A DNA stretch of 27,669 nucleotides from a virus: IMG/VR virus record IMGVR_UViG_3300037337_000038, positions 1 to 27,669 of that record; one strand, 5' to 3'. The translations under genes and the position numbers were made by a program. Shown here one piece after another: positions 67 through 20,012 of the stretch (its first letter is position 1; each line of letters opens with the position of its first letter). The notes beneath the pieces were generated by a model that was not told where the DNA came from, searched no databases, and saw only the letters and a list, made by a program, of their open reading frames with translations.

Positions 67-114
67 TGGTGGGAGATGCAAGTTTCGAACTTGCGACCCT
101 TGCAGTGTGAATGC
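67..114 (-). other. 3' part of a tRNA-Val(CAC) gene; prophage attachment-site copy
   Basis: Read on the minus strand this stretch has the 3' half of a tRNA: anticodon loop with CAC, anticodon-stem 3' strand TGCAA, five-base variable loop, a perfect T arm (GCAAG, loop TTCGAAA, CTTGC), a seven-base acceptor strand ATCTCCC, discriminator A and encoded CCA. The 5' half is missing: the anticodon-stem partner fits for only three of five pairs and no GGGAGAT acceptor strand follows to the right. Tyrosine-recombinase phages commonly integrate at the anticodon loop and leave such a 3' fragment at the end away from int. The Val assignment rests on the CAC triplet placed by loop geometry. About 106 bases of unassigned DNA (115-220) follow before the first phage gene. 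Confidence 0.7.
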
Positions 115-220
115 GTGTGGGGGCCAAATTATCAGAGGGTTTACCAATGAGCGGCACTATTGTGGATGGCTTGAAAAGGTGCTGAATTGCACCAAATTAC
201 ACCGAAATTTACACAGGCCC

Positions 221-2038: not shown

Positions 2039-2297
2039 GGCTGCCTTGCGCCGTCTCACCAGCAAAATCAGCCTTGATAAAGCCAAAAGCGGTAATCGCC
2101 GTCAGGTCTTCAACGTCTTCCCAAACAGGCGCAATAACCACGCCGTCGTAACCCGGCTGGCCGTAGCCTTCGGGCCGCACGGCGGTGTCTTGCTGCTGCG
2201 TCATCGAGCCGCGCAGGCGCTGCATGAATGCGGCGTGTGCTGGCGTGCCTGCAATGGCGTCCAGATCGGCGCGGGTGTTAATGACAGTGGATTGCAT
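2031..2297 (-). CDS. Conserved small phage protein of the tail-fibre region, function unknown
   Basis: An 88-residue acidic soluble protein. It contains INTRADLDAIAGTPAHAAFM and a later YGQPGYDG...PVWEDVEDL segment, a pattern that seems familiar from small proteins downstream of tail-fibre genes in other phages (from memory, unverified). The ATG has GGAG eight bases upstream. Its start overlaps the end of the reverse transcriptase gene by 20 bases and its stop overlaps the next gene, so it is in the same leftward operon. A tail-fibre assembly or cargo role is possible but unproven. Confidence 0.7.
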   Translation of the reverse strand: MQSTVINTRADLDAIAGTPAHAAFMQRLRGSMTQQQDTAVRPEGYGQPGYDGVVIAPVWEDVEDLTAITAFGFIKADFAGETAQGSHV

Positions 2298-3264
2298 GTT
2301 GTTTCTCCAAGTGGTTAAAGAGGTTGCACGTGTCGGCGTGGGCTGCGTGGCCCTTCCAAGACGCTAAAAATCGGGTCAAGCCGTCTTCGTCGCCAAGCCG
2401 CTTGAGGCGGGCGATCTTGCGTTTGGCGGTGGTCACGGATTGCTTGCGCAGCAGCTTGTGGCGCGGCCAAATGCGGTAGCCCAAGAAGTTGATGCCCCGC
2501 TGAATGGGCGCTACATGCCAATGGCTGATGCGCATACCCAGCCGGTCTAGGCTGAACTGCTGAATGTCCTCAAACCAGTCGCGCAGCTCGTAGGGGTTGC
2601 TGGACAAAATCACGATGTCGTCCATGTAGCGTGTCCACTCTTTTGCGCCCAGTTTGAAGTGAATGAATCGGTCGGTTTCGCCGCCGTAGACGTTGGCAAA
2701 GAGCTGGCTTGTCAGGCTACCGATGGGCAGGCCAAAGCCGGTGCGCGGCACCATGGCGGCAATCAGCTCATTGGTGGCGCGGCATGATATTTTGCGGTCG
2801 ATGAGTTCATGCAACACAGCGAGGTTGACGCTGGGGAAAAACTTGCTGTAATCCGTTTTGAGAAAATGCGTAGCCCCCGTGCGCCGAAGACCCGACTGCA
2901 CATGCCGCACCCCCGCATGCGTGCCCATGCCGGGGCGGCAGGCGTAAGTGCCTGGTAGCAAGGTTCTTTCAAAAATGGGGCCGATGACATTGACAAGCGC
3001 GTGTTGAGCCAGCCGGTCTTTGAAGTCGAGTGCTGAGATAAGACGCGCTTTTGGCTCATAAACGGTGAACTGGCGGTACTCGCCCTGCACCCATGCGCCG
3101 CTCAAGATTTCGTCACGCAACAGGCGTAGATTGGACTCGGCATACTCTTTGAATTCGAGGTAGCCCCACGTCATGCGCTTGGCGCGCGCGGTGTTGGCAT
3201 ACGCTAAGCGCAGGTTGTCGATGTCGGCCACTTGCTCGATCAATTGCTTGTACTTTTTACCCAT
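2278..3264 (-). CDS. Diversity-generating retroelement reverse transcriptase
   Basis: A 328-residue reverse transcriptase of the DGR group. Visible motifs, numbered from the ATG at 3264: the palm motif with catalytic aspartate (KTDYSKFFPS, 136-145), the DGR-typical LPIGSLTSQ (179-187), where group II intron and retroviral enzymes have a different sequence, YMDD catalytic box (213-216) and a thumb-proximal FLGYRIWP (260-267). There is no maturase, endonuclease or RNase H domain; the length suits DGR enzymes such as Brt of BPP-1 (about 330). It would copy the TR RNA into cDNA with errors at adenines, working with Avd. ATG at 3264 is preferred over TTG at 3279; GGGGG precedes it. It lies 176 bases downstream of TR. 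Confidence 0.95.
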   Translation of the reverse strand: MGKKYKQLIEQVADIDNLRLAYANTARAKRMTWGYLEFKEYAESNLRLLRDEILSGAWVQGEYRQFTVYEPKARLISALDFKDRLAQHALVNVIGPIFERTLLPGTYACRPGMGTHAGVRHVQSGLRRTGATHFLKTDYSKFFPSVNLAVLHELIDRKISCRATNELIAAMVPRTGFGLPIGSLTSQLFANVYGGETDRFIHFKLGAKEWTRYMDDIVILSSNPYELRDWFEDIQQFSLDRLGMRISHWHVAPIQRGINFLGYRIWPRHKLLRKQSVTTAKRKIARLKRLGDEDGLTRFLASWKGHAAHADTCNLFNHLEKQHAIHCH

Positions 3265-3560
3265 GGCACACCCCCACAAAGCCGGACACGACTTTCACCC
3301 GCTTGCGCTGGCTACTCGTCGTTTTTCCGAACCCCCAAAGGTGTTTGCCGAAGCAGGACCACACGGCTGACCACATATAAGTTGGCCGGCCTGCCAAGCC
3401 GTGGCATTGGCAGAGCGCTTTAAATACCGATTCAATGTCCTCACAGACGCCGCGAGCAGAGATGTTGCTGTTCGAGTTCGTGGGCGAGTTGTTCCAGTTC
3501 GAGCAGCGGGAACCGGAGTTCGCGCCATTGTCCCAGTTGCCCCCGAATAGCACGGCGTTG
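3265..3560 (-). ncRNA. DGR template RNA: TR plus spacer to the RT gene
   Basis: Between the avd stop and the RT start are 296 bases without a credible protein gene: the 119-bp template repeat followed by a 176-base spacer. In BPP-1 the TR RNA, with flanking avd and spacer sequence, is the substrate bound by RT-Avd for cDNA priming, and the spacer here is of comparable size. The reading frame that runs through it translates TR in the VR frame but has no ribosome-binding site or sensible protein beyond it. RNA ends cannot be set from sequence. Confidence 0.8.
3441..3559 (-). repeat. DGR template repeat (TR)
   Basis: It aligns without gaps to 4000-4118 (offset 559), with 109 of 119 positions identical. 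All ten differences fall on T of the plus strand, that is A of the template in coding sense (3466, 3472, 3477, 3478, 3492, 3498, 3499, 3520, 3531, 3538). The template codons involved are seven AAC and one GAC, the codon type favoured in DGR templates since A changes at the first two positions reach many residues. The repeat starts right after the avd stop codon (TAA at 3561-3563). Confidence 0.96.
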
Positions 3561-3941
3561 TTACCCATGTGGCCCCCTGCGTTTGTGCTGTTGCACCCAA
3601 GCGCCAAGCATGCGCCCCACCTCGGCGATCAGCGTCTGCGCTGTCTCGACTTGGTGAGAGGTGATGCCCTTGACCTGGCTGCCCAGCAAAAACCGCAGCC
3701 AAAATCGCAGATGGGCCAAGCCCGCGTCTGCGACGTAAAGGCGGGATACTTGATTGGACTTGCCCGCCTCTACAAACAGTTGAACCTGACCCAGCAGGCA
3801 TTGCAAAAACATATCACGCACAACGCCATGCTTGCGCGGCAGGCTTTGGGCAATCGGGTAGAGGTAAGAGATCACGGTCTCGTACTTCTCCACAATGGCC
3901 ATTTGCGCGTAGCTTTGGGCAGCGTCTTTGTCTGGGGTCAT
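3561..3941 (-). CDS. avd: Avd, DGR accessory variability determinant
   Basis: A 126-residue, mostly helical protein with a basic C-terminal end (QQHKRRGPHG). Its size, predicted helices (about residues 15-30, 38-60, 68-90 and 95-118), basic surface character and position between the variable gene and TR match Avd, the barrel-forming four-helix-bundle protein that partners the DGR reverse transcriptase and binds TR RNA. ATG at 3941 lies 40 bases after the fibre stop; only a weak AAAGCG precedes it. The stop TAA directly abuts TR. Primary sequence of Avd proteins is variable, so the call leans on context as well as on the overall pattern. Confidence 0.88.
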   Translation of the reverse strand: MTPDKDAAQSYAQMAIVEKYETVISYLYPIAQSLPRKHGVVRDMFLQCLLGQVQLFVEAGKSNQVSRLYVADAGLAHLRFWLRFLLGSQVKGITSHQVETAQTLIAEVGRMLGAWVQQHKRRGPHG

Positions 3942-3964
3942 GGTTCGCTTTAAAAAAAGAATCC

Positions 3965-3980
3965 GCAGGCTTTCGCCCGC
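3965..3980 (-). promoter_or_regulatory. DGR target-site hairpin (GAAA tetraloop) after VR; possible terminator
   Basis: On the coding strand GCGGGC-GAAA-GCCTGC makes a six-pair stem (one G-T) with a GAAA loop, directly after the fibre stop codon and 19 bases beyond the end of VR. BPP-1 has a hairpin or cruciform with a short GRNA-type loop just past its VR that increases retrohoming. A run of seven T follows six bases later (3952-3958), so the same element could also terminate the fibre transcript. Confidence 0.72.
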
Positions 3981-5279
3981 TCAGTCAAGAATCAGGTGGT
4001 CACAGACGCCGCGAGCAGAGATGTGGCTGTACGAGAGCGTGGGCGAGTTGGTCCAGGCCGAGCAGCGGGAACCGGAGTCCGCGCCATTGACCCAGTAGCC
4101 CCCGAATAGCACGGCGTTTTCCATCTGATACGTCGAGCCGCGCCCACCGGTGTTGGCCGTCCAAGCTGCACCCGCTGCGCCGCCACCAAAGTTAGACCCC
4201 CATACCCACAAGTTGCCGCTGGCCAGCATGACGCCGTAGCGGCTGGTGTAGGCCGCACGCAAGATGGTCGAGCCGGGGTCAGTGCCACCAGAAGATGCCT
4301 CAGTCGTGCCGTAAGCCAGCGCCGCAAACTCGCCGTAGTCGGGCAGGCGCTTGCCGTAGCTCATCAACACCTCAGCCGCCTCCCAGCGATTGAGCGAGCC
4401 ATAGGCGCTGCTGCCGTTGCCGCCAAACTTGACGGGTATCTTGGGCGGGGATGACCCGTCAGCAATCGTCACGTTGTATTTGCTGGTGCCATTGGTCAGG
4501 TGGTCAACACCCAACAGGTAAATGTCCGACCAAAAGCCATCAGCCACCAGTGTCATACCGCGCGGGTCAGTGCAGGCCGGGCGAAACTTCAAGTCCCACA
4601 AGCTGTATTCGTTGATGGCCGGGGTGGTGTTGCCACCCGCTTGCGCAGCCGCATTGCCGCCTGGCGCGTAGTGAAAACCGCCGATCTTGCGGCTGTTGGC
4701 TGTGGTGTAGCCCGACGGTGCGCTGAAGTTGGCATCGGCGCGGATGGTGCCGTCAGTTGCCGCGTAGATTGCATAGTCGGTGCCCGTGGTGAGCGTTGGC
4801 ATCACTACTGCTGTGGCGGTGGCGAAGGTGAGTTGGGTGCCAAGTACATCTACGCGAGTGCCGGCTTTAATCGAGACTGTGCCAGCGCCTGTTTTGGTAA
4901 AGGCTACTGAGCTGGCGTCGGCTTTAAAAAACAGCCCTGCGCCGCCGCTATTTGCAGCGATTGCATCTTTAATCAGGGCGGGCGACATACTGCGCAAAGC
5001 CGCCTCAGCACCTGCCTGCATTTCAGGCGTCGTTGCTACAGGGCCGGACGCTGAGGGCAAGCCGGTGGCTAAATTCAAAATATTTACCCAAGCGCTGTTG
5101 GCCGCATTGCGTTGCTTTAATATGCCTGCCGTGGTGTCTGGCCACCACATGTACGGGAAGGCGGTAGCGGGTGCTGTGCTGCCGCTGTTGTTGGTAACGG
5201 CTGCACCCAGCGCTAGGTTTAGGTCGGCGCGAAAAGGCGCACCTGCCGCGTTTGCAATGTCGTAATCGTGTTGAGCCAT
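3981..5279 (-). CDS. DGR variable protein: tail fibre with C-type-lectin-fold tip
   Basis: A 432-residue fibre protein. The N-terminus (MAQHDYDIANAAGAPFRADL, later WWPDTT...LKQRNAANSAWV) resembles phage tail-fibre attachment regions. Residues about 240-432 look like the formylglycine-generating-enzyme/C-type lectin fold used by DGR targets: RWEAAEVLMSYGKRLPDYGE echoes the family's GkrLPTEAEWE signature, followed by GNLWVWGSN and the terminal GSRCS...ARGVCDH motif. The last part is VR, so the variable residues should line the receptor-binding surface, as in Mtd of BPP-1. AGGAAAG nine bases before ATG is a good ribosome-binding site. It follows the J-like tail-tip gene, suiting a receptor-binding protein. 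The receptor is unknown. Confidence 0.93.
   Translation of the reverse strand: MAQHDYDIANAAGAPFRADLNLALGAAVTNNSGSTAPATAFPYMWWPDTTAGILKQRNAANSAWVNILNLATGLPSASGPVATTPEMQAGAEAALRSMSPALIKDAIAANSGGAGLFFKADASSVAFTKTGAGTVSIKAGTRVDVLGTQLTFATATAVVMPTLTTGTDYAIYAATDGTIRADANFSAPSGYTTANSRKIGGFHYAPGGNAAAQAGGNTTPAINEYSLWDLKFRPACTDPRGMTLVADGFWSDIYLLGVDHLTNGTSKYNVTIADGSSPPKIPVKFGGNGSSAYGSLNRWEAAEVLMSYGKRLPDYGEFAALAYGTTEASSGGTDPGSTILRAAYTSRYGVMLASGNLWVWGSNFGGGAAGAAWTANTGGRGSTYQMENAVLFGGYWVNGADSGSRCSAWTNSPTLSYSHISARGVCDHLILD
4000..4118 (-). repeat. DGR variable repeat (VR)
   Basis: The diversified copy of TR, covering residues 388-427 of the tail-fibre protein. Relative to TR, coding-sense changes are A to T, C or G only. 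Residue changes in order are Asn-Tyr, Asp-Val, Asn-Asp, Asn-Ala, Asn-Thr, Asn-Leu, Asn-Tyr and Asn-His. The 25 bases at the coding-sense 3' end are unchanged and GC-rich (GCTCGCGGCGTCTG), as expected of the initiation-of-mutagenic-homing segment. Sequence identity stops at 4000, after which VR and TR diverge. Confidence 0.96.
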
Positions 5280-5300: not shown

Positions 5301-7892
5301 TTAAACGGGTACCAGCGCGTCAACGCGCAGCTGGCTGATGCTGATGTTGTTTTGACTACTGCCGCTGACAAGGTCAAGCCGAAAGCGCAGTGCCCGGCAG
5401 CTAAAGTCACCGACAAAAAACGGTGTGTACGGCCCCCACACTGGCGTGCCCGCTGGGTCGTCATCCGTGGTGCTGGCCAGCAGGGTGGCGTCGCAATCAT
5501 TGACGACGTCGCCGTCCATCGGGCCCCAGTAGTCGCATAGCGACAGGCGCGAGTCAATCAGATCAACGGCCACGAAGCTGCTGGCGCGCAGGGTGCTTAA
5601 GATGCGCCGGGTGGCAACGCTGCCAAGGTCCATCACGGCGTTAAAGGCGTAGCTGCCGGTGGCCAAAATGCCGCCGAGACCGTCAATGTCGCCCAGGCTG
5701 TCGATGGCGTCGGCTGAATCAATCGGCGTGGTGCCGTCTAGTTGTATGCCGCCAGACACCAGCGTGACGTTGGTTTTGACGCCGGTAAAGTCGGGGTGCT
5801 GAATGCTGGTGGCCACTGTGCTAAAGCCAGTGATCAAGCCCTGCGTAGCCACAAAGCTAGCAATGCCAGCGCTGTAGTTGCCGGTGCTGTCGACCGCCTT
5901 GGCCATGTAAGTGCCCTCAAGCAGCGGCACCAGGGCGTTGTTGGCATCGCCGTTGAAGTCGTCCAGCACCACGCCGTCAGTCCAGACAGCGGCGGTTTTT
6001 AGCTGTGTGTGTCGGATCTGAATGCGCCCGCCAATGCGGACATCAAGGTCAGGATGCAGCGTCCAGCTGGCCAAAGCAAAACCGGCTGACTTGTGGACGC
6101 TGAAATTGATGATATTTGCCGGGGGTGCAGTCAGGCCCGCCAACTCTTGCGTGGTGGTGGCGGTGTACGCGCCACGCACGCCGATGCTGTTTTCAGCGCG
6201 CAGGCGAAATTCATAAATGCCGGGCGCAAGGTCGTCAATGTCAATGCTGGTGCCTGCAGTGCGTGGCAGCAGCTCCCAGGCGGCATCCGTGGCCAGTTTG
6301 TATTCGGGCAAATAGGCCAGCACAAACACATCAGGAGCGGCGGCCCAGCTGACCACGGCGCGGGCCTTGACGCCTGCGCTGCCGGTGGTCCTGTACAGCG
6401 CCTCAACGACGGCCGGAACGCCTGGCATGCCGACGTCAAAGGGGTTGGGCAGGTTGGTGTCGGGTGCCGGGTCAACCACCGTTTGGTTGCCGCTGTTCCA
6501 GGCGTAGCTGGCAGCGGTTTCTTCTTGCAGCACTACGTCGATGCCGCCTTCGGCTGAAAACTTCCACTCCAGCAATTTAAATTCTTTGGCTGCCCAACCC
6601 AACTGCGGGAAAGTCAGCATGACGGTGTCAAGCGTGGCCAGGCGCATGGCGCTTAGCTTCAGGGTGGTCTCGACCGTGATGCCCTGGCGGCTGCGCTCAA
6701 GCGTCAGCTTGGCAATGCGCTGGGCGGTGGCGCTGCTGGTGGTGTAGGGCAGCGCCATGTCGCGCCAGATCACGCCCGAGTCTTGCGCGGCATAGGTGCT
6801 GTTGGACTGGCCGGGGTAGTCGGTCGGTTTCCAAAACTGCGCCGGGTCGACAAAGGTGCCGCGCACGGCATTGAACAAGTCGCGCCGGGTAATGCGTGGC
6901 CGCACCCGCACCGGGCCTGCCAGGTCGCTGGCAGTTAACGTGACTGCTGGGGCGCTGTAGGCGCCGGCGTGCAGGCGGTAAGTGCCTGCGCTCCACACCA
7001 CATGCCCGTGCATGGCGCTGAGCATGCCCTCCATGATGCCACGTGGCGCGTCGCCCAGGTCCAACACGCCGTTGCAGGTGTAGCGCGGCTCAGTGCCCTC
7101 AAGGGTGTTGACCAGCTCGTCGCAGACATTGGCTGCGGCAATCAGCAGCGGCGTGTCGACTTCGCTAGCGTCGGCCTGCAGGCCTGCAGCGGCGGTGATG
7201 TAGTCGCGCACGGCCAGCGCCGGGTTTTGGCTCCATGCAGTCAGCCCGGTGCGGGGGTCAAACAACTTTTTGCCACGGACGATGGCTTTGACGTTGGGGA
7301 TGCCGGTGGGGAATACGTCTTGGCTCCACTGCATGCGCAGCACTAAGTAAGCCACGCCTGACAGGCGGTGTGCGGCTGTCCAGCCGACGTTGGCCGCCAC
7401 CAGGTCAGCATCTGCCGCGTCGCCCGGGTTGCCTCGGTGCACGCTGACGCGCACCGCGCCGGCATACGGGCCGCTGGCCACGTCGCCCAGGTTGGGCAGG
7501 GCCAGGTCGTTGAGGTAAACGGTTTCAACTGCGTCAATTTCATGGCCCGCTAGCGGGATAACTAAAAACAGCGTGCCGTTGCTCTCGCCGCTGATGCTGG
7601 CAAACACCAGCGGGCCGCTGACCATGGCGCGGCCATAGACGATGGTGCGGTTGGCGGCGGCGCTGCGCACCACTTGGTCTCGCCCCTCGGCCCTGGCTGT
7701 GAAGCCGGCTGAGCTGTTGCTATTGGAGCCGCGCCCGCCAATGGCACCACCCAGCACGCCACCAACAACACTTGCTACGCCTGCCGTGATGACCGCTGCT
7801 GTAAAGGCCGACACAGCAAACGCACTTACAGCATACGCAGCTGCGGCTGATCCTGCGTAGCTGGCGGCTGCGGCAATGACAACAACAGCCAT
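5301..7892 (-). CDS. J-like tail-tip / host-specificity protein
   Basis: An 863-residue tail-tip protein in the position of lambda J, last of the morphogenesis genes before the fibre. The N-terminus is a long Ala/Val-rich hydrophobic region followed by Gly-rich residues (GGVLGGAIGGRG), often seen in this family. The middle (about 70-450) looks like the phage tail tip hub region (DUF/putative phage tail family, with VYLNDL and RDYITAAAGL), and about 490-590 and 600-680 resemble fibronectin type III domains (APDVFVLAYLPEYK..., IYEFRLRAENSIGVRG). The C-terminus (about 790-863) looks like a beta-sandwich. It should close the tail tube and carry the fibre. ATG directly abuts the previous gene's stop. 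Confidence 0.85.
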   Translation of the reverse strand: MAVVVIAAAASYAGSAAAAYAVSAFAVSAFTAAVITAGVASVVGGVLGGAIGGRGSNSNSSAGFTARAEGRDQVVRSAAANRTIVYGRAMVSGPLVFASISGESNGTLFLVIPLAGHEIDAVETVYLNDLALPNLGDVASGPYAGAVRVSVHRGNPGDAADADLVAANVGWTAAHRLSGVAYLVLRMQWSQDVFPTGIPNVKAIVRGKKLFDPRTGLTAWSQNPALAVRDYITAAAGLQADASEVDTPLLIAAANVCDELVNTLEGTEPRYTCNGVLDLGDAPRGIMEGMLSAMHGHVVWSAGTYRLHAGAYSAPAVTLTASDLAGPVRVRPRITRRDLFNAVRGTFVDPAQFWKPTDYPGQSNSTYAAQDSGVIWRDMALPYTTSSATAQRIAKLTLERSRQGITVETTLKLSAMRLATLDTVMLTFPQLGWAAKEFKLLEWKFSAEGGIDVVLQEETAASYAWNSGNQTVVDPAPDTNLPNPFDVGMPGVPAVVEALYRTTGSAGVKARAVVSWAAAPDVFVLAYLPEYKLATDAAWELLPRTAGTSIDIDDLAPGIYEFRLRAENSIGVRGAYTATTTQELAGLTAPPANIINFSVHKSAGFALASWTLHPDLDVRIGGRIQIRHTQLKTAAVWTDGVVLDDFNGDANNALVPLLEGTYMAKAVDSTGNYSAGIASFVATQGLITGFSTVATSIQHPDFTGVKTNVTLVSGGIQLDGTTPIDSADAIDSLGDIDGLGGILATGSYAFNAVMDLGSVATRRILSTLRASSFVAVDLIDSRLSLCDYWGPMDGDVVNDCDATLLASTTDDDPAGTPVWGPYTPFFVGDFSCRALRFRLDLVSGSSQNNISISQLRVDALVPV

Positions 7893-13730: not shown

Positions 13731-15572
13731 TTAAGCCGTCAATGCGTCGACCATGGTCGCGAACGACTCGATGTTGCGCACGGCCACGTCGACGTCTTGC
13801 AGGGCCACTACGCGCACCGTGCCGGCGGTGCTGCCGGTGTACGGGTCGACCATGATGTCCAGGCTGCCCCACATGCCAATCATCAGGTCTGCAAAGTTGC
13901 CAAACAGGATGGCCGAGCAAACGCCGCTGCTGGTGCCCTTGGTCAGGTTGCTGGGCACGGCGTTGGTGACGCCAACGTTGTAGCCGTTGATCGGCGTGCT
14001 GCCCAGGTCCCACACCGGCGCGCCGTTGGTGGAGGCAAACTTTTGCGTGGTTTTGAGCTTGCCGCGCATTTTGACGTTGGTCAAATAGCCCAGCGTGCCA
14101 ATGTCGGCATTGCCCACGGCAACGTTGGTTTCCAGGTCGATCATGTTGGGCCAAGTCGGTGCCAGGCCGTTGGTGCCGCCGATGACGGACGGTGTGATCA
14201 GCGTGAGCAGGCCAGACGGCTGGTTGCTGGCGCCGCTGCCGCTGATGGCGGCTTGCTGCACGGCCAGGCCGAGCACAGTGGCCAAGTCTTGGTTGACCAT
14301 GGCCTCAACGTCGATACTGGACTGCAGCGTCAGGCGGCGGCTGATGTCGGTAAACGCGCCAACCGTCTTGGGTGACATGGTGACTTGACCAACCGTCTGT
14401 TGGGACTCGGTGGGTGCGCCGTTTTCGGCCACCCAGTAGGCGGTGGCCGCGCCGGTCTGCTTGGGGATGGCGATCTGCCCCACCAGGCCGGTCAGCATGC
14501 GGGCACCCATGCGGTCAATCACCATGGCGTTTCGGAACAGGTCGATAAAGCTGCCGCTGAGCAGATCAGTGGCCACCAGGTTGCCGCCAGCGGTGGGCGT
14601 GCCGACCAACAAGTCGCGTTTTTGCACGTCGCTTGGCATAAAAAAGCCACGTGCCGCTTTGCCCATCTTGGTGGCTACAGCGCCAGAGGCCTCAAACTCA
14701 AACGCGGCGGCGCGCTGGGCAGCGGCGTCGCTGGGGTTGGCCAGGGCGTGGATGGCGCGCACCACGCTAAAGCGGCGGGTTTCGGCCGTGCTCATGCCGA
14801 TGTCGCTTGTGGGCACGGGCTTGGTGGACAGCGCACGAATGGCCTCGACCTGGAATTGCTCGACCGTGTGGCCGGCCTGGATGGACTTCATGGCCATCTC
14901 GGCACCGCCGGGCATAGTGGCGGCGATTTTGCTGATCTCGGCGGGGTGGTTGCGCTGAACTGGGGTTTCGATAACGGTAACGGTGGCTTCTGTGGTCATG
15001 GTTTTTTCCTGAAAAGTTGGGGGGGTAGGGAGCAAAGGGGCGGCGTCAGATGCCAGGCTGCGGCCTACACCGACGGATGCATCAGCGGGGACGCTGACAA
15101 GAGATACTTCAAACGGTTCCCAGTCGGTGACGCGGTAGGTTTCCACACCATCCGCTGTTTCGACCAGCACCGCTTTATGGACCATGTAGCCAACGGACAC
15201 GCTTCGGCGTATGCCGCCCAGCACGTCTTGCCACACTTCCTCTGCTCGGGCGCTTTTCCCAAAACGCACCACGGCACGGGCCACACGGTCCGCACCGATT
15301 TCTACAGATTCGACAACGCCCACCACGTCTTGCGTGTTGTGGTCGCATAACAGGTTGGCACCGCCACGCAAGCGCTTGCTGCGCATGGCGCTGGCGGTGC
15401 AATCTAAAATTTCTATGCCCCAGTAGCGCTCGTAAGCCAGCTCGCTGGCAAATGCCAGGGTGGCGGTGCGGGCGGCCTCGTCAATTGCATTGCGCTCGAC
15501 AGCAAAGGCGCGCTCAACACGGCCACCGGCAATGTGGCGGGCCAGATTTGGGGGGATGTGCGGTTGGGGCAT
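13731..15572 (-). CDS. Fused prohead protease and HK97-fold major capsid protein
   Basis: A 613-residue polyprotein. Residues about 15-180 look like an HK97-type prohead protease (LLCDHN with candidate catalytic His, GIRRSVSVGY with candidate Ser, WEPFEVSLVSVPAD near the end). A Pro-rich linker (PLLPTPPTF) is followed by a delta-domain-like helical part (about 192-280) and the HK97 capsid fold (about 320-613, with TAGGNLVATDLL, IPKQTGAATAYWVAENG, ISRRLTLQSSIDVEAMV, VALQDVDVAVRN). ATG at 15572 is chosen because homology-like sequence begins there; no clear ribosome-binding site precedes it. An ATG at 14999 has a strong site and would give the 422-residue capsid part alone. Confidence 0.9.
   Translation of the reverse strand: MPQPHIPPNLARHIAGGRVERAFAVERNAIDEAARTATLAFASELAYERYWGIEILDCTASAMRSKRLRGGANLLCDHNTQDVVGVVESVEIGADRVARAVVRFGKSARAEEVWQDVLGGIRRSVSVGYMVHKAVLVETADGVETYRVTDWEPFEVSLVSVPADASVGVGRSLASDAAPLLPTPPTFQEKTMTTEATVTVIETPVQRNHPAEISKIAATMPGGAEMAMKSIQAGHTVEQFQVEAIRALSTKPVPTSDIGMSTAETRRFSVVRAIHALANPSDAAAQRAAAFEFEASGAVATKMGKAARGFFMPSDVQKRDLLVGTPTAGGNLVATDLLSGSFIDLFRNAMVIDRMGARMLTGLVGQIAIPKQTGAATAYWVAENGAPTESQQTVGQVTMSPKTVGAFTDISRRLTLQSSIDVEAMVNQDLATVLGLAVQQAAISGSGASNQPSGLLTLITPSVIGGTNGLAPTWPNMIDLETNVAVGNADIGTLGYLTNVKMRGKLKTTQKFASTNGAPVWDLGSTPINGYNVGVTNAVPSNLTKGTSSGVCSAILFGNFADLMIGMWGSLDIMVDPYTGSTAGTVRVVALQDVDVAVRNIESFATMVDALTA
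14997..15010 (-). promoter_or_regulatory. Internal ribosome-binding site and ATG for free capsid protein
   Basis: Within the protease-capsid reading frame the coding strand reads AGGAAAAAACCATG, a strong Shine-Dalgarno at good spacing from the in-frame ATG at 14997-14999 (residue 192). It lies exactly at the domain border after the Pro-rich linker. It decides a second start giving a 422-residue capsid precursor. Confidence 0.75.
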
Positions 15573-15593
15573 GCCGCTACTGTCGCGGCGGTA

Positions 15594-15623
15594 GTGTCTT
15601 GTTTTCAAGGCAAAAGACAAGAC
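15594..15623 (-). repeat. 30-bp dyad element, copy 1, upstream of the capsid gene
   Basis: Identical over 30 bp to 19983-20012. In coding sense it contains arms GTCTTGT and ACAAGAC around an inner TTT/AAA pairing with one bulged base. Its end lies 21 bases before the protease-capsid ATG. A run of repeated GCGCAAAAAA-type sequence (15626-15658) lies just upstream, between it and the previous gene. Confidence 0.85.
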
Positions 15624-15659
15624 ACGGCGCAACTTTTTTGCGCGTGTTTTTTTTGCGCT

Positions 15660-17461: not shown

Positions 17462-19408
17462 TTATACCTCGTAAGTTGTGACGGTTTGTACAATTTCATC
17501 GTTGGAGTCGCGCTCGACTTTTTGCACGGCGCGGGTCGGGTGGCTGCTGACGACAGTGACCAGCGGCGCTGGCATGGCCGCCTCAAAATTGACGGTGGGT
17601 GCTTCGACACTGACGTTGACAATCGGGGCGAGCTGCTCGGGGACGTTGATGGTGACTTGCATGTTTTCCTCAATGGCGCGGATTTTGTCGGCATGGGCGC
17701 TAGCAATCTTTTCAACGGCCGCGCCGAGGCTGTCAAAAATTTGCCGGCTGTCCAGGCTGATGTTTTGCGCGGGCAGGTTGATGACGGGCGCCGGTGCCTC
17801 GCGCGTGGCTTGCGCGGTGATGGCGGCCATCATGGCGTCCAGGCTGCGAGCTTGTTGCTGGCTTTGCTGCAAGGCCAGATCTTTGGCGGCGGGTTCCGGT
17901 GGGGGCGGTGCGGGCGCGGCGCCTGCACTGTTTGCGCCGGGCATGGCGTCGTAAGCGGTGAGCTGCACGCCGTACAGTTTGGCCATCTCTTGCGCGGACT
18001 TGATGGCTTTCAGCGTGTCTTCGAAGTCGTAGCCCATGGCGGCGCTCAAATCTTGCGGGGCCATCAGGCCGGCTTTGACGCTGAGTATTTTTGCTTCCAT
18101 GTCGCTTTTGGGGTCCACCCATTCCCAGCGGCGCGGCTGCCATTCGTGCTTGGCAAACTTGGCGGCCTTGGCGGCTGGCAGGGCCGAGCCGTTGGGCATG
18201 GTGATGGCGCCCGACAGCAGCGCCATTTGTAGCCAAGCCTGAAACACCGGTTCCATAAAGCAGCCGATGAACCACTGCTGGTCGGCCATCCACCTGTCGC
18301 GCTCTTCCAGCGTGCCGCTGCGGATGCTGGAAAAGCTCACGCCTTCCAGGTCATTGGCCAGGCTGTGGTAGGCCACACGCCAGCCGGTGGCGATGCGTTG
18401 CAGCATGGTTTTTGCAAACGGGCTGAACACTTCGTTGGGGTATTTGCTGTCGTGCGCCTGGTAGCTGTAGCCAACGGGTAGGGTGTCGTACATGCCGGGT
18501 TGGCTCGGGCTGATGTTGATCGCGTCTGCGCCGCTGCCTTCAATGCCGCCGCTCGGCGGTTGCCCGCTGGCGTCCTCGCTTTGCTTAAAAAAGCCGTAGT
18601 GGTTAGCGCCGTGTTCTGCCGCCAACAAGGCCGACAGCATGAAGTTGCCGAGGTGGTGCAGGCTGAGCATGCCGGGGGCCATCCACGGCACGCCGCGCAT
18701 TTGCTCGGCGCGCTCAATTTTAAATTTATGCAGCAGCTCGGTGGCCGCTACACGTATTCGGCGGCGGCCGGTGCGACTGCCGTCGTTGGGGTGCGACTCA
18801 AACAGGTGCAGCGCCAGTGGGCGACGGTAGGTGTCGACCTCGACGCCCATGATGACGGTGTTGCCGCCGTAGCTGCCGTTGTAGGCGGTGTCGATGCGGT
18901 CAACGTCGATAATTTGCAGGGCAAAGTTAAAGCGGTTGCGCGCGTCGGTACCGCGCACCATGCGAACCAAAAACTCACCATCTGCGGGCAGGCTGCCGGT
19001 GATGCTTTCACAGAGGTCGCGCAACTGCAACTGGCCGGTAACGTCGCACACGCTGGACCATTCGTCCCAGGCTTTTTCAATCGCGTCATTGGCCATGGCG
19101 TCTTCTTTGCCGGGCGCGTCTTCGACCTTTGCCTGCAGACGGATGCCGGCCGGGCCAATTAAATTGTTTTCGACCATGCCCCTGAACTTTTTGGCGTAGT
19201 CGTTGTTGCTGGCCAGCTGGCGGCCGCGTTTGCGCAGGTTGTTGAGGTCGGCGCGCAGCTCTTCATTGATGCTGCTTTCGGTAGCAAACCAGTCGGCGCT
19301 GAGCCGGTCAATACGGGCGCCGTCAAAGCGGCGCAGCTGCAGGCCGGCAGCGGGGGCGCGGCCGGTCAGGTTGCGCCACAGTTGCGCGGCTTTTGTAAAT
19401 GGTTTCAT
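17462..19408 (-). CDS. Portal protein, lambda gpB family
   Basis: A 648-residue portal subunit; twelve copies form the channel for DNA packaging and the site of tail joining. The sequence shows lambda-family portal features: N-terminal region with LRADLNNLRKRGRQLASNNDYAKKF, then VENNLIGPAGIRLQAK, WDEWSSVCDVTGQ, DGEFLVRMVRG, IDVDRIDTAYNG and the stretch around RGVPWMAP and GWRVAYHSLANDLEGVSFSSIRSG. The C-terminal quarter (about 500-648) is Ala/Pro/Gln-rich, with a likely coiled coil and no clear fold. Lambda gpB is 533 residues, so an extra C-terminal extension is present here. ATGA overlap with the gpW-like gene. Confidence 0.93.
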   Translation of the reverse strand: MKPFTKAAQLWRNLTGRAPAAGLQLRRFDGARIDRLSADWFATESSINEELRADLNNLRKRGRQLASNNDYAKKFRGMVENNLIGPAGIRLQAKVEDAPGKEDAMANDAIEKAWDEWSSVCDVTGQLQLRDLCESITGSLPADGEFLVRMVRGTDARNRFNFALQIIDVDRIDTAYNGSYGGNTVIMGVEVDTYRRPLALHLFESHPNDGSRTGRRRIRVAATELLHKFKIERAEQMRGVPWMAPGMLSLHHLGNFMLSALLAAEHGANHYGFFKQSEDASGQPPSGGIEGSGADAINISPSQPGMYDTLPVGYSYQAHDSKYPNEVFSPFAKTMLQRIATGWRVAYHSLANDLEGVSFSSIRSGTLEERDRWMADQQWFIGCFMEPVFQAWLQMALLSGAITMPNGSALPAAKAAKFAKHEWQPRRWEWVDPKSDMEAKILSVKAGLMAPQDLSAAMGYDFEDTLKAIKSAQEMAKLYGVQLTAYDAMPGANSAGAAPAPPPPEPAAKDLALQQSQQQARSLDAMMAAITAQATREAPAPVINLPAQNISLDSRQIFDSLGAAVEKIASAHADKIRAIEENMQVTINVPEQLAPIVNVSVEAPTVNFEAAMPAPLVTVVSSHPTRAVQKVERDSNDEIVQTVTTYEV

Positions 19409-19959
19409 GGGCCAAACCTGACGTAAATGCGGCCTTTTCCGGGCATGCCTGCTGCCGCATCGCTGGCGGCGTCTTCGGCCGCTACGTCGCGCCTGAGTCG
19501 GTCGCGCAGCGTCAGCAGCTCGGGCATGGGAATGTATTTGATTTTGCGACCGGCAATCTCGTACTCAGCCGTGGCGCTGGTGGCGCGGCCTTCAAGGGTG
19601 GCGTTAACAGCTTCGAGCATGCGCCTAGCCTGGCTGCGGGCGTCTTGTGCAGTGCCAAAAGCTGGCGCAATGGTGATGCGGCCAGTGCCGGTGGTGTAGA
19701 CCTCACCCGACTTGCTGACGCTGGCGCGCAAGCTGTAGTCCCCAGCCGTCCAGCTGGCCGTGGTGGCCGCGCTGACGTTGACCAAATGGTCATCACCCTG
19801 CGCACCTGCGCTGAAGGTGATGCGCTGGGCCGCGTTGACCAGCGTGTAGGTGAGCGCCCAGCCTTCGCTGGCAGGGTAGTCGGCCAGCGTCTTGAGCCAC
19901 TTGGCGGTGTCACCAGCGATCAGGCTGGCGGGTTCGGTGGTGTGAATTGGGGGTGCCAT
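19405..19959 (-). CDS. gpW-like head-tail joining protein with N-terminal extension
   Basis: A 184-residue protein between terminase and portal, the place of lambda gpW. Its C-terminal part, about residues 108-165 (RRMLEAVNATLEGRATSATAEYEIAGRKIKYIPMPELLTLRDRLRRD), fits gpW: a helix, a short hairpin and a second helix. Lambda gpW has only 68 residues; here about 100 N-terminal residues form an added beta-rich domain (LTYTLVNAAQRITFSAGAQGDDHLV...WTAGDYSLRASV) seen in related phage proteins. gpW stabilises DNA in the head before tail joining. ATG at 19959 has no clear ribosome-binding site; the 30-bp dyad element lies 23 bases before it. Confidence 0.78.
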   Translation of the reverse strand: MAPPIHTTEPASLIAGDTAKWLKTLADYPASEGWALTYTLVNAAQRITFSAGAQGDDHLVNVSAATTASWTAGDYSLRASVSKSGEVYTTGTGRITIAPAFGTAQDARSQARRMLEAVNATLEGRATSATAEYEIAGRKIKYIPMPELLTLRDRLRRDVAAEDAASDAAAGMPGKGRIYVRFGP

Positions 19960-19982
19960 GCGTGTAGATGGTCATGCCTGTG

Positions 19983-20012
19983 GTGTCTTGTTTTCAAGGC
20001 AAAAGACAAGAC
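19983..20012 (-). repeat. 30-bp dyad element, copy 2, upstream of the gpW-like gene
   Basis: Identical over 30 bp to 15594-15623 and at nearly the same distance (23 bases against 21) from the next ATG, again a start codon without a clear ribosome-binding site. It sits between the Mor-like gene and the gpW-like gene. Confidence 0.85.

Follow-up and report, generated by a model that had tools for sequence, protein, structure and literature searches.

A complete BPP-1-type diversity-generating retroelement beside siphovirus-like tail genes in a 27,669-base virus record

The DNA analysed here, a virus record of 27,669 bases (hereafter, the window), almost certainly carries a complete, probably active diversity-generating retroelement (DGR) of the BPP-1 type. 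We observed the full anatomy of such an element, homology of its parts to those of Bordetella phage BPP-1, TR–VR differences that fall on template adenines only, and a TR that stays constant among sibling phages while their VRs diverge. The parts are all encoded on the minus strand, in the order target gene with VR, hairpin, avd, TR, Phage_DGR RNA and reverse transcriptase (RT):

3981..5279, minus strand: Mtd-like target gene of 432 aa, with a match to the BPP-1 Major Tropism Determinant over residues 116-432
4000..4118, minus strand: VR, codons 388-427 of the target; 10 differences from the TR, all at template A
3985..4007, minus strand: IMH, the target-site element at the VR 3' end, GTCTGTGACCACCTGATTCTTGA, 23 nt identical to the BPP-1 VR
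3965..3980, minus strand: hairpin GCGGGC[GAAA]GCCTGC, with a GRNA loop, directly 3' of the target stop codon
3561..3941, minus strand: Avd, 126 aa; match to the Bbp7/Avd structures 4dwl and 8ub7
3441..3559, minus strand: TR, AAC-rich, 26 A in 119 nt; identified by the direct-repeat match and by identity in siblings
3281..3416, minus strand: Phage_DGR RNA (Rfam RF03022, 107.9 bits), the spacer between TR and RT
2278..3279, minus strand: DGR reverse transcriptase, 60% identical to BPP-1 Brt; PHROG 1423

Based on protein comparisons, the target matches BPP-1 Mtd with an E-value of about 1e-121 and 62% identity over residues 116-432, and the VR lies at the 3' end of the gene, in the Mtd-like C-type-lectin domain. 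The first ~115 residues gave no match to BPP-1 Mtd in the searches run; they match other phage families, some of which are annotated as tail. The RT reading frame, which opens at TTG 3279 and has its likely start at ATG 3264, is intact and contains YMDD and GSLTSQ motifs. In DGR-clade RTs an SQ motif replaces QG, and the window RT has SQ at this place; among solved structures, the BPP-1 DGR RT (8ub7) is closest to it. The avd gene lies between target and TR, and the TR is followed by the spacer RNA and brt, which is the BPP-1-type order.

The TR and VR form by far the longest direct repeat in the window, as an independent repeat search also found, and the TR is the downstream copy, outside the target gene. 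An ungapped minus-strand alignment of 3441-3559 with 4000-4118 has 119 columns and 10 differences, all of which fall on an A of the coding-sense TR (which has 26 A and 93 other bases); the VR has four T, four C and two G there. The recomputed counts are those given in the initial annotation, whose by-hand chance of near 2 in 10 million for ten hits on A corresponds to a binomial value of 2.5e-7; the exact hypergeometric probability is 5.0e-8. Its count of eight recoded codons (seven AAC, one GAC) also holds, whereas its statement that two other Asn codons remain has to be raised to three if the repeat's own first codon is included (AAC at TR positions 1-3, AAT at 31-33 and AAC at 70-72). The limits of the 119-nt repeat are the points at which non-A mismatches start, so that the adenine-only pattern applies inside the repeat alone. 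Directly 3' of it, mismatches involve G, G, A, T and further bases, which marks the boundary expected between the IMH at the VR end and the IMH* at the TR end, past which the TR diverges, and is no counter-evidence.

Near-repeats of 119 nt are hard for short-read assembly, and mixing of reads from the two copies could in principle have produced such a pair. This is very unlikely, because mixed reads would not confine the differences to A, TR and VR each keep a distinct 3' boundary, and independent contigs share the anatomy; on these three grounds we rejected an assembly artefact.

The adenine signature recurs among relatives. A search with the RT recovered 67 viral loci and 2 genome loci, the latter being the only RT relatives among the GTDB contigs (a MAG labelled Bordetella parapertussis and a Gallionellales MAG). 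Over 61 loci, with the window included and near-duplicates not collapsed, 815 of 902 TR–VR mismatches (90%) fall on template A, a base that accounts for 22.4% of the template, and mismatches are at template A alone in 23 of the 61. In the VR of one locus (L028, 4196-4314) all seven N bases sit on template adenines, which suggests a mixed sequenced population at precisely these DGR sites. Another locus (L068; 2358-2473, 3487-3602 and 4037-4152) has a tandem pair of target-gene copies, both with VRs that differ from the single TR mostly at A, and one TR may thus serve two targets.

Two sibling phage contigs allowed the comparison proposed in the initial annotation, namely whether related phages have a conserved TR and VR differences at A sites. 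L002 shares 95.2% DNA identity with the window over 4868 nt and L003 shares 96.6% over 4254 nt. The TR is letter-for-letter identical in all three (all 119 nt), whereas the VRs differ at 15 (window and L002), 18 (window and L003) and 16 (L002 and L003) of the 26 template-A sites, compared to 1, 1 and 0 of the 93 other sites, respectively. At least one of the three VRs is changed at 21 of the 26 template adenines, and all three non-A bases are used as replacements (T 16, G 13, C 10). Together with the complete DGR anatomy, in which every element was found in order, this comparison supports the reading of the window as a DGR, as the initial annotation had proposed.

The sibling comparison also bears on the idea that a gene was simply duplicated and one copy then drifted, with the adenine pattern due to chance or to selection on binding-site codons. 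Positive selection on Asn codons could focus changes on the first and second positions of AAC. Nevertheless, the chance of the pattern is 5e-8, it is repeated in the 61 loci, DGR RT and Avd genes adjoin the repeat pair, and the TR, which is non-coding for the target, is identical among siblings. Duplication with drift or selection alone is therefore extremely improbable, and the TR/VR comparison among siblings refutes it.

By analogy with BPP-1, the DGR would work as follows. The TR and spacer RNA would be transcribed from the minus strand, and an RT–Avd complex would copy the TR into cDNA with misincorporation opposite adenines. Guided by the IMH and hairpin, the cDNA would then take the place of the homologous VR in the 3' end of the Mtd-like gene and leave the TR as it was. 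The AAC-rich template would put the randomised residues on the face with which the C-type-lectin domain binds, and phages with altered receptor binding could result. Priming, cDNA integration, present activity and receptor switching are all modelled here on BPP-1.

In phage DGRs, a hairpin/cruciform with a GC-rich stem of 7-10 bp and a GRNA loop is located 4-34 bp after the VR (PMC3240598). The GAAA loop and the position of the window hairpin fit this pattern, but its stem, with 6 bp including one G-T pair, is shorter. Folded alone, the 6-bp hairpin was no better than shuffles (z -0.55), and since single-sequence folding was not significant, we turned to a comparison among loci. When a hairpin was defined as a GRNA loop on a stem of 6 bp or more 3' of the Mtd gene, 27 of the 40 distinct loci with an RT had one (the other 13 lacked a recognisable GRNA hairpin), compared to 0 of 11 loci without RT and Avd (Fisher p 5e-5). 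A looser search (any 4-nt loop, slightly longer stretch) added a GCAA hairpin in the RT-less L117 and in two further RT-bearing loci, as well as a weak candidate in the RT-less L100. Stem sequences vary among loci while the pairing is preserved. Hairpin presence therefore tracks RT presence, and the comparison lends support to the window hairpin.

Mtd relatives (n = 80) comprise 52 with an RT, 13 whose sequence is too short for a call, and 15 that have at least 2 kb of downstream sequence but no RT; in the latter 15, a profile search that recovered its positive controls found none either. Loci whose Mtd gene has a VR-like end, with neither RT nor Avd in 2 kb or more of downstream sequence, are L072/L076 (one contig; 7390-7527), L085, L089, L093, L100, L117, L123, L125, L128, L130, L141, L144 and L146, and no hairpin was found in them except in L117 and, weakly, L100. 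The whole DGR cassette was apparently lost (or never present) in these loci, leaving a frozen VR. The nearest RT-less relative, L072/L076, has an Mtd 90% identical to that of the window, its next gene begins within ~8 nt of the Mtd stop codon, and its VR differs from the window TR at 12 sites, nine of them template A. In L105 (4001-5000) and L142, the Mtd gene is followed by a perfect GAAA hairpin and by an Avd match, but by no RT, which looks like partial DGR decay. L009 has intact RT, Avd, Mtd and Phage_DGR RNA, and its TR (4715-4839) has only 8 A in 125; compared to the window TR there are 28 differences, 19 of them on template A. It may be that mutagenised cDNA, or the VR, was copied over this TR (a burned-out DGR); alternatively, L009 may be an assembly chimera. 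We tentatively propose, as a possibility that is less probable than its negation, that in the Mtd family hairpin, avd, TR and RT form one removable unit, which either follows homologous Mtd genes or is cleanly missing there and leaves a frozen VR behind, and that a DGR can erase its own TR adenines, as in L009. Literature searches on DGR loss and on TR self-targeting brought up no paper with a 'remnant VR' or 'self-targeting', although this does not prove absence.

Relatives without an RT or with a decayed cassette show that loss is common in the Mtd family, and the window DGR could likewise be a formerly active element that is now inert, with the adenine-only signature as a fossil of past retrohoming. 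We consider this unlikely, because the window has an intact RT, Avd, RNA, IMH and hairpin, the repeat shows no A-independent TR/VR drift, and the VRs differ between siblings that are 95-97% identical.

Upstream of the target lies a siphovirus-like gene set (gpJ-like central tail protein, distal tail, tape measure, major tail, portal, head and terminase), and holin, endolysin and Rz-like genes lie downstream. Because the target N-terminus has no detected BPP-1 Mtd match and the target lies beside a tail gene like lambda gpJ, the Mtd receptor-binding head and its DGR look like a module set on another tail. ARAGORN found no tRNA in the window; a stretch at 70-115 (minus strand), GCAAGTTCGAAACTTGCATCTCCCACCA, resembles a tRNA 3' end and is possibly an attachment site, by analogy with the one BPP-1 has at the end of tRNA-His. 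Two direct repeats of 42 nt each (15582-15623 and 19971-20012; 88% identical) both contain the palindromic-looking GTGTCTTGTTTTCAAGGCAAAAGACAAGAC; one lies near the start of a head gene (13731-15632), the other a short way upstream of the gene at 19405-19959.

This kind of cassette is already well described, so that the window adds one further complete DGR and leaves the known DGR mechanism unchanged. It places an Mtd-DGR module beside siphovirus-like (gpJ) tail genes, beyond BPP-1-like phages, and provides a comparison set of three nearly identical phages that share a TR and have three different VRs, plus relatives without the cassette. The cassette-less Mtd genes with a frozen VR and the adenine-poor TR of L009 are more interesting than the window DGR itself: if the cassette is removable and capable of self-erasure, the window would be one of several intact members with which gain, loss and self-erasure become measurable.

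Among known systems, Roux et al. 2021 (PMC8144416) catalogued DGRs from IMG metagenomes (31,007 RTs), many of whose targets are tail proteins. The window DGR belongs to the same class and is not known to differ from these; because the data source overlaps, it or its siblings may already be in that catalogue. The mtd genes of phages S-CBS3, S-CBS1 and P12026 encode C-terminal domains homologous to that of the window (37-45% identity). Gene 17 of LR745707 and LR745708, both named Escherichia phage T7, matches the Mtd C-terminus at 58-59% identity; these two records look like laboratory chimeras. The BPP-1 DGR (AY029185) has the same order of mtd with VR, bbp7/avd, TR and brt, and shares with the window the RT (60% identical), homologous Avd and Mtd, the identical 23-nt IMH, a GAAA hairpin, an AAC-rich TR and the Phage_DGR RNA. 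The window differs from BPP-1 in the N-terminus of its Mtd (about residues 1-115), in its TR core sequence, in a hairpin stem of 6 rather than 8 bp, and in a target that adjoins a gpJ-like tail gene, in a phage of which 20 kb gave no megablast match to phage records.
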